This document shows positions 14,880 through 20,556 of a DNA stretch of 64,000 nt, in pieces (the first letter of the stretch is position 1; each line of letters begins with the position of its first letter). The notes beneath the pieces are model-generated. The model was given only the letters and a program-made list of their open reading frames with translations. It made no database searches and had not been told where the DNA came from. The DNA lies in contig JAYELL010000076.1 of NCBI GenBank assembly GCA_034717495.1, forward strand, positions 62,001-126,000, read 5' to 3'. This DNA is from Chloroflexota bacterium (lineage in GTDB: Bacteria; Chloroflexota; Anaerolineae; JAAEKA01). The position numbers were made by a program, and so were the translations under genes.

Positions 14880-17141
14880 ATGACACCCCCCAACCTCTTT
14901 GACCATCGCCGGGAAAAGTTGATCCAGCAGGAACAGCCCCTGGCAGCCCGCATGCGGCCCCGCACCCTGGATGAGTTCGTCGGCCAGGGACACATCGTTG
15001 GGCCTGGCCGACTCTTGCGCCGTGCCATCCAGGCCGATCAGCTGAGCAGTGTGATATTTTACGGTCCACCGGGCACCGGCAAGACCACCCTGGCCATGGT
15101 CATTGCCAACACGACCCAGGCCCACTTCATCGCCATTAACGCTGTCCTGGGGGGAGTCAAGGACATTCGCAACGCCATTGCCGTAGCTCAGGACCAACGG
15201 GGCATACATGGGCGCAAAACCATTCTCTTTGTAGACGAAGTGCATCGCTTCAACAAAGCCCAGCAAGACGCCCTGTTGCCGTGGGTGGAGAACGGCACTG
15301 TCATTCTGGTCGGCGCTACCACGGAGAATCCCTACTTCGCGGTCAACCGGCCGTTGGTCAGCCGAAGCCGAATTTTCCAGCTCAAGCCACTGGTCGAAGC
15401 CGACCTGTATGCCATCGCCCGGCAGGCACTGGCCGACCGGGATCGCGGTTACGGCAGGCTCCCGGTTGAACTCGACGAGAACGCACTGGATCACCTGGTC
15501 AATGTTGCCAACGGGGATGCCCGCGCCGTGCTCAATGCGCTGGAACTGGCTGTGGAGACGACTCCGCCAAACAGCAATCACGGATTTCCGGATACCGATC
15601 AGCAGATCATCCGCGTCACCCTTGCCGTCGCCGAGGAGTCGATCCAGCGTCGGGCGGTGCTCTACGACAAAGAGGGCGACTACCACTTTGATACGATCAG
15701 CGCCTTCATCAAGTCGTTGCGGGGATCGGATCCGGATGCGGCGCTCTACTGGCTGGCCAAGATGGTCTACGCCGGGGAAGATCCCAGGTTCATCTTCCGG
15801 CGCATGTTGATCTTTGCCAGCGAAGATGTGGGCCTGGCCGATCCTGACGCATTGACCGTTGTTGTCTCTGCGGCAACGGCGTTCGACCGGGTTGGCCTGC
15901 CCGAAGGTCGTTTTCATCTTTCCCAGGCAACACTCTACCTGGCGACGGCGGCCAAGTCCAACTCCACGATGGGCTTTTTCGATGCTCTGAACGCCGTGGA
16001 GCAGGAACGGGAGGCCGAGGTGCCCACCCACTTGCGGGATGCCAGCAGGGACAGCGAGGGCTTCGGGCATGGCGAGGGCTATCTCTATCCCCACGCCTAT
16101 CGGGATCACTGGGTGGCACAGCAGTACCTGCCCGAATCGCTGCAAGGCAAGGTTTTTTATCAGCCGGGCGATCAAGGCGCGGAGGCCGGCATCAAGGCGG
16201 AAGTACAACGGCACAGGGAGGCCCAGCTGGCTGCCATGGTCGAGGGGGATGGGATTGGTCCGCCGGAGATTTTGACCTTTTCCGGTGATCGAGTCGCACG
16301 GCAGCGCGACCAATGGCTGCAGCGAACCGTCAGCGGGACCGGCCAGCGGCTTGGCGCTGTGCGCGATCGGGTATTGGATGTGGCCGGATTACAACGTCAC
16401 TCGGTCGTGCTGGATTTGAATGCCGGCAGTGGTCTGCTGACATGGGAGGCCCTGCGCCGGGTGCCCGAGGGGGGCGTCTATGCGCTGGCCCGCGGTGCCG
16501 ATGGGCAGGCCCTGGCGCAACAGGCCAATCGTCTGGGTGCCGCGGAACAACCGATCATCTTGCAGGGCGAGCTGGCCGATCTCAAGGATCTGCTGGCGTC
16601 CAGCGAGCTTGATTCGCAGGCTTTCGACGCTATCGTGGGCAGGAATGCCCTCGGCTCGCTTGATGAAAAGATGACCATGGTCAGTTTTTTAGGATCGCTG
16701 CTGGCAGAGGATGGGGTACTCAGCCTGGTCGAGACGGTGCCGGTCTATACCCAGCGGCTCTATGAGCTACTGGACAGGACAGCCCTGGACTCTGATCTGG
16801 TTGCTGCGCTGGTTGAGGCTGAGGAGGCGATTTACCGGCGTGACGATGATCCCATGGTCAACTGGAACGAAGAAGACCTGCGGGCCGCTCTCGACGGGGG
16901 AAATCTGACGGGCGAGGTGGTGCTCAAACCGGAGCAGCGGGAGCTAATCATCTCGCAGGCCATGCTCGATCGTTGGTTTCAGCCCTCTTCCGACGAAAAA
17001 CGCCCGAGCTACCGTGACCATCTTGCCCGGACATTGACGGCTGACGACCTGAAAACTGTGCAGAAGGCATTTCGGCTCCAGCTCAGCAATGCCACCGTTA
17101 GCTGGTCCGGTGCTAATGCTTTCCTCAAGGCCGGAAGGTGA
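14880..17141 (+). CDS. rarA: RarA/MgsA AAA+ ATPase fused to a methyltransferase-like domain
   Basis: 753 residues. Residues 1-440 are a full replication-associated recombination protein [19 protein letters not shown], Walker [10 protein letters not shown] (62-70), Walker [17 protein letters not shown], sensor 1 GATTENPYF and the C-terminal RarA region ([22 protein letters not shown]). RarA acts at stalled replication forks. Residues 450-750 are an extra module with an SAM-binding-like [19 protein letters not shown] and no other family signature I recognise. E. coli RarA ends near 447 residues, so this is a C-terminal fusion; similar RarA/unknown-domain fusions are known in cyanobacteria. The stop lies 5 bases before the thioredoxin gene. 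Confidence 0.88.
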
Positions 17142-17146
17142 AAAAC

Positions 17147-17629
17147 ATGACAGCAACTCAAATCGCCAATCAGTTTTCCTTTTTGATCTTTCCCCTGACG
17201 CTGTTCGCTATTGCTGCGATCGTGCTTCTGGCGCGCCATGCCGGTTGGACCTGGTGGGCCGGTTGGGCCATTCTGCTAGTTGGTTTCCTGGCGATCGTAT
17301 TATCCACCGGTCAACGGAATACGGCGCGTTTCGATAGCGACGAGAATATCCGCAGATCGCTGGCCTCAGGTGAACAACCAACCCTGGTAGAGTTCTTTTC
17401 CAACTACTGACTGGGCTGTGTAGCCAATCGATCGCTCGTGCAGCGACTTGAGGACCAGTGGACCGATGGCAGGGTGGTGACCCTGGACGTGATGGATCCG
17501 CAGATCAGGCGATTTGCCGAGGATGTCGGTTTTGAGGTGACCCCTACCTTCATCCTGTATGATGCCCAGGGCAACGAGCTGAATCGCTGGGTTGGCAAGG
17601 CGCCGGCACTGGAGGAACTTACCCGGTAA
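17147..17629 (+). CDS. Membrane-anchored thioredoxin, candidate selenoprotein (in-frame TGA at the active site)
   Basis: The frame runs ATG 17147, TGA 17408-17410, TAA 17627-17629; reading the TGA as selenocysteine gives 160 residues with Sec88. Two membrane helices (about 10-60) are followed by a thioredoxin fold: TLVEFFSNY, then U-L-G-C, then VTLDVMD, the cis-Pro segment VTPTFILYD and GNELNRWVG. The TGA falls exactly on the first Cys of the C-x-x-C motif, giving U-x-x-C, and strong thioredoxin features continue in the same frame downstream. A hairpin of bacterial SECIS type lies 19-40 bases after the TGA. The start ATG has an AAGG site 8 bases upstream. The alternative is a single nonsense mutation or read error in a C-L-G-C thioredoxin. 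No sel genes are in the window. Confidence 0.72.
17429..17450 (+). promoter_or_regulatory. Candidate bacterial SECIS hairpin
   Basis: C29-G50, G30-U49 and A31-U48 (numbers are 174xx), a bulged C47, then UCGCU (17432-17436) pairs with AGCGA (17442-17446) around the loop CGUGC. The apical loop begins 27 bases after the TGA and carries G at its second position followed by U, features expected of bacterial SECIS elements. CTGG (17411-17414) can also pair with CCAG (17455-17458) as an outer stem. Function is inferred from shape and position only. Confidence 0.5.
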
Positions 17630-17637
17630 CTCAGCTA

Positions 17638-18501
17638 TCACTCGCTGGTGGACATGTGCCTTTCCACGGCGCGCACGGCGAGAGCCAGGCCGATGGTCAT
17701 GATCAGGTAGAGAAAGCCCACCACGTTGTAGGTTTCGAAGAACTTGAAGGTGCTGGCTGCATAGACCTTGCCCTGGAAGGTGATATCCGCGACTCCCATC
17801 ACCGACACCAGGGATGAGTCCTTCAGCATGGCGATAAAGTTGTTTCCCAACGGGGGCAGCACCCGGCGAACCGCCTGGGGAAGAATTACATAGCGCATGG
17901 CCTGCCAGTTGGACATGCCCAGGGAACGGGCAGCCTCCATCTGGCCACGTTCGATGGACTCGATCCCTGCGCGGAAGACCTCGGATAGAAAGGCGCTGTA
18001 GCCGATGGTCAGCGCAATGATGACTCTTGTGGTGAAGTCGAAATCGCGCACCTGTACACCGGCCAGCGCCTGCCCAAGTCCAGTCAGAATACCCAACCCC
18101 AGCAGGAATTCTCCCACGGCGTTGACAGCCTGAGCCATCGCTGGCGCTCCGGCGAAGACGATGAAATAGAGCAGCACCAACATCGGCAAACCGCGGATGA
18201 CCTCGACGTAGAAGGTCGAGATTTCCTGCAGCACGCGTCTGTGTGATACCCGCATCAAGGCAATCAGCAACCCCAACGCCATCGAGAGGGCGTATGCGAT
18301 CACCGAAACCTTGATCGTGATGCCAACACCCTTTACGACCGCCTGGAAAATGACCGTATAATCCTCGTCGCTGATGATCTTCCAGATGAAAATCAGCCCC
18401 AGGATGATAATGAAGATCAACCAGTAGGGTGGACGCCGCAGCAGGCTGCTTATCGAGCCCTTGCGGTCAATCGTAGGTACGGTCTGAGCGTTGACACTCA
18501 T
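17638..18501 (-). CDS. Polar amino acid ABC transporter permease
   Basis: 287 residues with about six membrane segments. It carries the His/Glu/Gln/Arg permease (HisM/GlnP) signature: [20 protein letters not shown] at the first core helix, [17 protein letters not shown], and the EAA loop [20 protein letters not shown] followed by [26 protein letters not shown] precedes the ATG by 7 bases. It lies downstream of the binding-protein gene on the same strand. No ATPase gene accompanies them, so the ATP-binding subunit must be encoded elsewhere. Confidence 0.93.
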
Positions 18502-18681: not shown

Positions 18682-20127
18682 CTACTCGGTTGGATCGTAG
18701 GCAAAGAACCACTTGTTGCTCAGGTGATCAAAGAAACCATCCACGCGCATGGTAGCGATGGCCTGGTCGAAGCTTTCGACCAGATCACTGTCTGGTGTGA
18801 AGATAAAGCCAAAGTTTTCGCTCGCCAGTGGCTCTCCAATCACCTCCAGTTGATCAGGATTGGCGCCGATGTATCCCTTGGTCGATGCAGCATCCATCAG
18901 CACCATGTCCACGTCGCCGGTAAGCAAGGCCTGGACGGCTGCGCCGAAGGTCTCGAAGAGCTTGATGCGGGGGTTGGACTCGTCGCCATCCAGTACGTCG
19001 TAGACGGCAACATAGAAGTTGGTGGTGCCGGCCTGGGAACCGATCAGCAACTCATCGTTGGCTGCAAATTCCTCCGGCGTGGCGAAGCGATCTTCGCCGG
19101 CACCGACCAACATGAACTGCTCGGCGGTCATGTAGGGAATGGAGAAGTCAACCTGTTCCCCCCGCTCCTCGGTAATGGTGATGCCATCCATGCCGATGTC
19201 GAATTGGCCCTGGCGAACGGCGGAGATCATGGTGTCCCAGGCGGTCACGTTCCAGTCGACCTCACAGTTGATTCGCACACATAGCTCGTTTATGGCGTCA
19301 TACTCCCAGCCAATGGCCTCGCCGGTCTTGGGATCGACGAAGTTCAGCGGTACGTAGTCGTTGCCGGTGACCGCAACAACGGTGCGGCCTTCCAGATCGG
19401 GCAGGCTGTCGTAAAGGTCATCCTGGTTCGGATCGGTCAGGAAGAACCACTTGTTGTTGAGGAAGTGCAGAAAGCCGTCCTCTTGCATAGAGGCAATAGC
19501 GGCATCGAAGGGCTCTGCCAGATCGCTTTCCGGCGTGAAGATGAAGCCGAACTCCTCGGTGCCAAGAGGTTCACCCACGATGTTCAACTGGTCAGGGTTG
19601 GCACCCATGTAGCCCCGGCTTGAGGCGGCATCCATCAGCACCATGTCCACATCCCCTGAGAGCAAGGCCTGGACGGCCGCGCCGAAGGTCTCAAAGAGCT
19701 TGATGCGGGCGTTGGACTCGTCGCCATCCAGGACGTCGTAGACGGCAACGTAGAAGTTGGTCGTGCCGGCCTGGGAGCCGATCAGCAACTCGTCGTTGGC
19801 TGCGAATTCTTCCGGCGTGGTGAAGCGGTCTTCGCCGGCACCGACCAGCATGTATTGCTGTGACACCATGTAGGGGTTGGAGAAATCAACCTGTTCTCCC
19901 CGCTCCTCGGTGATAGTAATGCCGTCCATGCCCACGTCGAACTGGCCCTGGCGAACGGCGGAGATCATGGTGTCCCAGGCGGTGACGTTCCAGTCGACGT
20001 CGCAGTTCAGGCGCCGGCAGATCTCCTCCACCGCGTCGTACTCCCATCCGACGGCCTCACCGGTCTTGGGATCAACGTAGTTGAGAGGAATGTAGTCATT
20101 GCCAGTGACTGCCACGATCGTCCGGCC
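18682..20127 (-). repeat. Internal 738-bp tandem duplication
   Basis: Copy 1 covers about 20127-19390 and copy 2 about 19389-18682, each coding one binding domain. Long runs are nearly identical at DNA level (for example 19877-19960 versus 19139-19222), which implies a recent duplication or ongoing gene conversion. Confidence 0.85.
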
Positions 20128-20322
20128 ACCAAGGTCAAAAAGATCACCCTTGGCAACAGGGGCGGCCGGTTCCGGGGCGGGGGCTTCTTCTTTGGCCGGT
20201 TCTTGCCCGGCTGGCGCCGGCGCATCCGGTACAACGGCTTGGGGAATCGCTGGTGGTGTGCAGGCCACTGCGACCATGCTTACGATCACGATCAGGAACA
20301 GAAAGGCTCGGAAGGTCCTCAT
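18682..20322 (-). CDS. Lipoprotein with two tandem amino-acid-binding (SBP family 3) domains
   Basis: 546 residues. The signal ends in MVAVAC (lipobox), then comes a Pro/Ala/Glu linker (about 25-60) and two near-identical family 3 solute-binding domains. Each begins GR-T-(I/V)-VAVTGNDY and contains VDPKTGEA(V/I)GWEYDA, ISAVRQGQFD(V/I)GMDGITITEER, IGSQAGTTN and a C-terminal NKWFF. The two copies are offset by exactly 738 bp (246 codons). The ATG at 20322 has AGGAG 8 bases upstream; longer in-frame extensions lack a signal peptide. The permease gene follows. Two linked domains may deliver to one transporter, as in some Gram-positive systems. Confidence 0.92.
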   Translation of the reverse strand: MRTFRAFLFLIVIVSMVAVACTPPAIPQAVVPDAPAPAGQEPAKEEAPAPEPAAPVAKGDLFDLGGRTIVAVTGNDYIPLNYVDPKTGEAVGWEYDAVEEICRRLNCDVDWNVTAWDTMISAVRQGQFDVGMDGITITEERGEQVDFSNPYMVSQQYMLVGAGEDRFTTPEEFAANDELLIGSQAGTTNFYVAVYDVLDGDESNARIKLFETFGAAVQALLSGDVDMVLMDAASSRGYMGANPDQLNIVGEPLGTEEFGFIFTPESDLAEPFDAAIASMQEDGFLHFLNNKWFFLTDPNQDDLYDSLPDLEGRTVVAVTGNDYVPLNFVDPKTGEAIGWEYDAINELCVRINCEVDWNVTAWDTMISAVRQGQFDIGMDGITITEERGEQVDFSIPYMTAEQFMLVGAGEDRFATPEEFAANDELLIGSQAGTTNFYVAVYDVLDGDESNPRIKLFETFGAAVQALLTGDVDMVLMDAASTKGYIGANPDQLEVIGEPLASENFGFIFTPDSDLVESFDQAIATMRVDGFFDHLSNKWFFAYDPTE

Positions 20323-20373
20323 GCTATTCACTCCTGTTGGAACGAGTCTCAAGGTGGCGATTGTCTTTCGTGA

Positions 20374-20379
20374 ATTATA
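20374..20379 (-). promoter_or_regulatory. -10 element of the binding-protein gene
   Basis: A perfect TATAAT on the minus strand (20379 to 20374) about 50 bases before the ATG. The -35 position is poor (TACCCA or TTACCC), so an activator may be needed. Confidence 0.4.
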
Positions 20380-20556
20380 CCCCGCCCGGGGCATTCTGGG
20401 TAACCTGTGGTGCAACATGTCATCCCCGCGGCCAATGCGACACGGCGGCGGTGGGAAAATCGTCAATTGTCGGCGGTCAAGGGTATCGATTCAGATTCCT
20501 GGAAGTGACCATCTGATCCTCCGACCTCTGATACTCTGATACTCCGACCCTTCGAG

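Follow-up and report, generated by a model that had tools for sequence, protein, structure and literature searches.

TlpA, ResA, CcmG/DsbE and the C-terminal domain of DsbD are membrane-tethered proteins of the thioredoxin fold that function as extracytoplasmic reductases. Thioredoxins that contain selenocysteine (Sec) in a UxxC motif (Trx, PF00085) are a listed selenoprotein family (PMC1794560, PMC13188914), which bears out the starting premise of the preliminary description of this locus, that U-x-x-C thioredoxin-like selenoproteins exist in bacteria. Ocean metagenomes commonly contain thioredoxin-like selenoproteins (PMC2398784), and UxxC is also carried by SaoT and by a HUIPC-motif protein (PMC13188914). 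For the Chloroflexi, PMC1794560 counts three selenoproteins of three families and, in the passages reached by term search, names thioredoxin only for other phyla; PMC13188914 leaves the phylum unmentioned.

The gene described here belongs to this already known kind of Sec thioredoxin, with which it shares a predicted Sec at position 1 of UxxC, a resolving Cys, a downstream SECIS-like hairpin and the existence of Cys homologues. As far as the published descriptions go, it differs in that its subgroup has two N-terminal transmembrane (TM) helices and is not the TrxA equivalog, the window protein scoring 26.4 bits against TIGR01068 (cut-off 96.8). No mention of a membrane-anchored Sec thioredoxin of Chloroflexota was found in the papers searched by terms, and the membrane-anchored subgroup is probably unlisted. 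Some likeness to the tethered reductases is given by weak profile similarity among the relatives to the DsbE, DsbD, ResA and TlpA models and by a probable CcdA-type donor, but the window protein is distinguished from them by its two-helix anchor and by the predicted Sec in place of Cys, and reaches only 15.6 bits with the DsbE model (cut-off 123). SaoT, TsoB and the HUIPC-motif protein are likewise thioredoxin-like selenoproteins; their NCBIfam models gave no match to the window protein at an E-value of 0.1, and TsoB matched only weakly, in 23 of 41 family members. No NCBIfam model scored above its cut-off for the window protein.

The interrupted thioredoxin frame and its homologues

In the window, by which is meant the whole 64,000-nucleotide stretch of DNA that was analysed, the gene occupies 17147-17629 (+) and would encode 160 amino acids, with two TM helices followed by a UxxC thioredoxin domain. 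The frame runs from ATG 17147 to codon 88, which is TGA (17408-17410, +), and then through 72 further sense codons to TAA 17627-17629; an alternative start is possible at GTG 17138, overlapping the stop of the upstream gene. Translated with Cys at residue 88, the read-through frame matched the Pfam Thioredoxin profile PF00085 at 28.9 bits (gathering cut-off 23.5), and the hallmarks of that family, namely the thioredoxin fold, the (C/U)xxC redox motif and the cis-Pro, are all present. The TGA lies at the first position of UxxC, and the resolving cysteine (residue 91, 17417-17419, +) and the cis-Pro (residue 133, 17543-17545, +), both invariant, follow it in frame. The preliminary description, which had read a thioredoxin frame broken by this TGA alone, at the site of the first Cys of CxxC, with thioredoxin features continuing to the TAA, was exact in its coordinates. 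That the gene encodes a thioredoxin decoded with Sec at residue 88 is given a probability of about 0.95, based on comparison with homologues and on the machinery of the host.

Homologues were sought in a sample of 60 genomes, made up of the host and relatives mostly of the same class, which yielded 23 loci besides that of the window with exactly one in-frame TGA in the matched stretch, located at the first position of UxxC wherever the motif was legible. A set of 80 loci from named genomes was kept, assigned to Chloroflexota or Anaerolineae by record titles or tree labels; the search patterns were derived from the same thioredoxin family, hence this set says nothing on absence elsewhere. With the window gene there are 81 homologues, of which 68 have TGA and 13 have a Cys codon (TGC or TGT) at the very same position, and over the matched stretch all are free of any other in-frame stop. 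A wider sample of 251 genomes of the phylum added candidates from other classes, which match over the full length and contain one TGA, and no relatives were found on the viral contigs and plasmids searched. Most relatives among the uncultured Chloroflexota thus most likely carry selenothioredoxin genes that are interrupted by TGA in the same way.

Two relatives stand nearest, L055 from Anaerolineae bacterium clx_CAG2, with TGA, and L056 from Caldilineales bacterium SKYG74, with TGC; in the tree the window gene is sister to the Cys gene L056, with the TGA gene L055 next outside. Eight changes between Sec and Cys are required by the tree of 72 rows, at least seven of which are forced by well supported branches. 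The dN/dS ratio between the window gene and L055 was 0.18 before the TGA and 0.15 after it, and in other pairs it ranged from 0.02 to 0.25 after the TGA, with synonymous changes near saturation in the most distant pairs. As judged from these ratios, the codons downstream of the TGA are under purifying selection.

An otherwise ordinary frame interrupted by a single stop could reflect a genuine nonsense mutation or a fault in the assembly, in which case the gene would be a pseudogene or an artefact. This was rejected and is given next to no chance, as TGA recurs at this codon in 67 other Chloroflexota loci that have no further in-frame stop, which also argues strongly against a base-calling error, and as selection persists past the TGA.

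Several other arrangements were observed during these searches. A second thioredoxin group with an active-site TGA (L026, L027, L029-L035, L037-L039 and L046) is common in the same class, and most of its members have one hydrophobic N-terminal stretch and an SNxUxxC-type motif. At G023:C55, G053:C470, G058:C160 and G007:C146 only a few hundred bases or less separate a TGA thioredoxin from another thioredoxin match, which is free of stops. Adjoining family matches with one TGA each, possibly tandem selenothioredoxins, are present at G091:C20:73923-75108, G134:C25:16934-17971 and G173:C6:21226-22328.

The hairpin downstream of the TGA

A bSECIS-like hairpin is located at 17428-17451 (+) and comprises nine pairs (5+4) with C17447 bulged and a loop of five nucleotides, CGUGC (17437-17441), with 26 bases between the TGA and the loop. 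The published bSECIS model (PMC13188914) has a loop of 3-9 nt whose first two positions include G, a stem of 4-16 bp, a distance of 16-37 nt from the UGA and an energy of at most -7.5 kcal/mol. In loop, stem and spacing the window hairpin is within these limits, in agreement with the earlier proposal of a hairpin with a 5-base loop at bacterial SECIS spacing, and its energy of -7.4 kcal/mol (17427-17452) falls narrowly short; the value is -12.3 kcal/mol for 17411-17457, which includes a second hairpin. Taken alone the window hairpin is unexceptional, with a z-score of -0.99 against shuffles and P = 0.04 against synonymous codon choices, and the thermodynamic test on a single hairpin is uninformative (z -0.99 to 0.80). 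The case for a SECIS-type element is one of comparison across the homologues and not of the window hairpin by itself.

For this comparison, 65 distinct TGA segments were set against 2000 sets of synonymous codon shuffles. Counted from the TGA, the stem columns coincide across the TGA genes without gaps, that is, in the same register. At least four of the five inner pairs are formed in 62 of the 65 distinct genes, where the shuffles reach a maximum of 34, and all five in 38 (shuffle maximum 11); GU occupies loop positions 2-3 in every one of the 65. Four or more pairs are present in 65 of 68 TGA homologues vs 2 of 13 Cys homologues (Fisher P = 2.2e-9, a value that is too small since the sequences are related).

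The check on covariation proposed with the original description was carried out on 36 sequences, and the stem does covary: both sides have changed in a compensatory way in 43 cells, where shuffles give 12.4, and none of 500 shuffles reaches 43. The proportion of paired cells, 92% in the true register, drops to 23-43% in sliding controls of the same sequences, and RNAalifold recovers most of the same helix unprompted. Comparison thus shows, at the level of the aligned genes, that the TGA is conserved in a sense role, that Cys codons take its place in some homologues and that a covarying hairpin goes with it, and the covariation also speaks against a pseudogene or an artefact.

One Cys homologue (L113:4405-4806) has all seven hairpin pairs retained, and is perhaps a relic of a recent change from Sec to Cys.

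Selenocysteine machinery of the host and its relatives

The host assembly is an incomplete draft of 5.0 Mb in 120 contigs and is 95.6% complete. It encodes tRNA-Sec (71.1 bits, over the cut-off, and called SeC (tca) by ARAGORN), SelA (465 bits) and SelB (349 bits, with the whole model covered), so that three parts of the machinery expected from the preliminary description are present. The fourth, SelD, was not found in the host assembly (G000; L017, L018), where the best match scored 94.5 bits (cut-off 125). This best candidate was judged from its score and sequence to be AIR-synthase/HypE-like and was rejected, as was a second candidate, which is taken for HypE from its sequence, its score and its position after a hydrogenase-maturation-type gene.

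Over the 60 genomes, tRNA-Sec scored above its cut-off in 51, SelA in 50, SelB in 50 and SelD in 49, the last including three genomes of the host's own family, and most SelD frames of the relatives themselves contain one in-frame TGA. As the host assembly is an incomplete draft and SelD is found in 49 of the 60 genomes, its absence most likely reflects a gap in the assembly. Presence of the machinery and presence of the gene tend in the expected direction in this sample, but the test is weak, with so few genomes that lack the machinery. The Thermoflexus-like genomes G015 and G050 each gave a second hit that passes the Rfam cut-off for tRNA-Sec (L135, L136); ARAGORN calls these tRNA-Ser, and they were discounted. 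They advise caution when tRNA-Sec is counted by the Rfam model alone.

UGA readthrough occurs in nature, and the codon could be read as ordinary Cys or Trp, by readthrough or reassignment, with no part played by selenium machinery; alternatively translation could restart downstream, where there is a GTG-start ORF (17438-17629). The failure to find SelD in the host assembly is in keeping with these readings, but tRNA-Sec, SelA and SelB are all encoded, the SECIS-like hairpin goes with TGA and has mostly disappeared from the Cys homologues, and a product begun at 17438 would have neither of the active-site residues. General reassignment of TGA was rejected, as the adjacent rarA ends in TGA (17139-17141) and SelA, SelB and rarA contain no sense TGA. 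Readthrough or restart is accordingly regarded as very improbable.

Decoding with Sec, as had been proposed for SelB and tRNA-Sec, is supported because the genome encodes tRNA-Sec, SelA and SelB and because the hairpin is tied to the TGA and mostly lost with Cys; the alternation of TGA and Cys at the codon and the covariation of the stem add to this. The hairpin just 3' of the UGA at 17408 would recruit SelB carrying Sec-tRNA-Sec, SelB would decode this UGA as Sec, and the ribosome would continue to the TAA at 17627. The product would be a membrane-anchored thioredoxin in which the nucleophilic Cys is replaced by selenocysteine (UxxC).

Membrane topology, neighbourhood and probable role

The AlphaFold model (mean pLDDT 87.9) has two helices, residues 11-29 and 34-54, followed by a thioredoxin-type domain; both are predicted to be TM helices and, together with the positively charged loop that joins them, correspond to 17177-17308 (+). 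Thioredoxins are the top PDB matches in both the structure and the profile search. In 63 of 64 homologues the linker that joins the helices carries more positive charge than the N-terminus, with means of 2.6 vs 0.16 Lys/Arg, and therefore, by the positive-inside rule, both termini of a two-helix protein of this kind would lie outside the cytoplasm.

Classical TrxA is cytoplasmic, and it could be supposed that the thioredoxin domain of this Sec protein is also on the cytoplasmic side, with thioredoxin reductase as its reductant. The PDB neighbours are mostly TrxA-like and the 20 residues past the second helix have a mean of about two positive charges, both of which would suit a cytoplasmic domain; the charge distribution around the linker and the occurrence of DsbD C-terminal domains among the structural matches are against it, and it is considered unlikely. 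An extracytoplasmic role, to which the charge counts point, is considerably better favoured, and the thioredoxin domain is probably an extracytoplasmic disulfide reductase. Its electrons may come from a CcdA/DsbD-type protein, and a membrane protein of this type, a candidate donor, is encoded on contig C38 of the host next to a CxxC thioredoxin-like protein.

No functional partner adjoins the gene in the neighbourhoods of the window and its relatives. Upstream lies a gene for an AAA+ ATPase of the RarA/MgsA type that is extended far at its C-terminus (14880-17141, +); this gene, from the spacing, is probably co-transcribed with the selenothioredoxin gene and is retained in this position in the two nearest relatives, L055 and L056. 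In a distant Anaerolineales group the recurrent neighbours are an elongation-factor-G-like gene upstream, on the opposite strand, and a methyltransferase-like gene downstream, both named from sequence motifs.

Other features of the surrounding genes were also recorded. About 300 residues of the RarA-type protein (14880-17141, +) extend beyond its last Pfam match and match no Pfam family. An amino-acid ABC permease-like gene (17638-18501) lies beside a solute-binding-type gene (18682-20466, -), and the latter encodes a 594-aa protein with two very similar domain copies in tandem.

The Anaerolineae and their relatives may carry an ancestral outward-facing selenothioredoxin driving selenium-dependent disulfide reduction outside the cytoplasm, which was repeatedly replaced by Cys forms and is systematically truncated in annotation; the chances of this wider proposal are judged to be about even. 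The gene adds a widespread, probably unlisted selenoprotein subgroup in a largely uncultured phylum, and provides many closely spaced Sec/Cys pairs, whose Sec members have the SECIS-like hairpin and whose Cys members mostly do not. With the frame split by the stop, annotation is expected to render such genes as fragments, and a selenium-dependent redox enzyme would then be overlooked and, with it, part of the selenium demand of the Anaerolineae.
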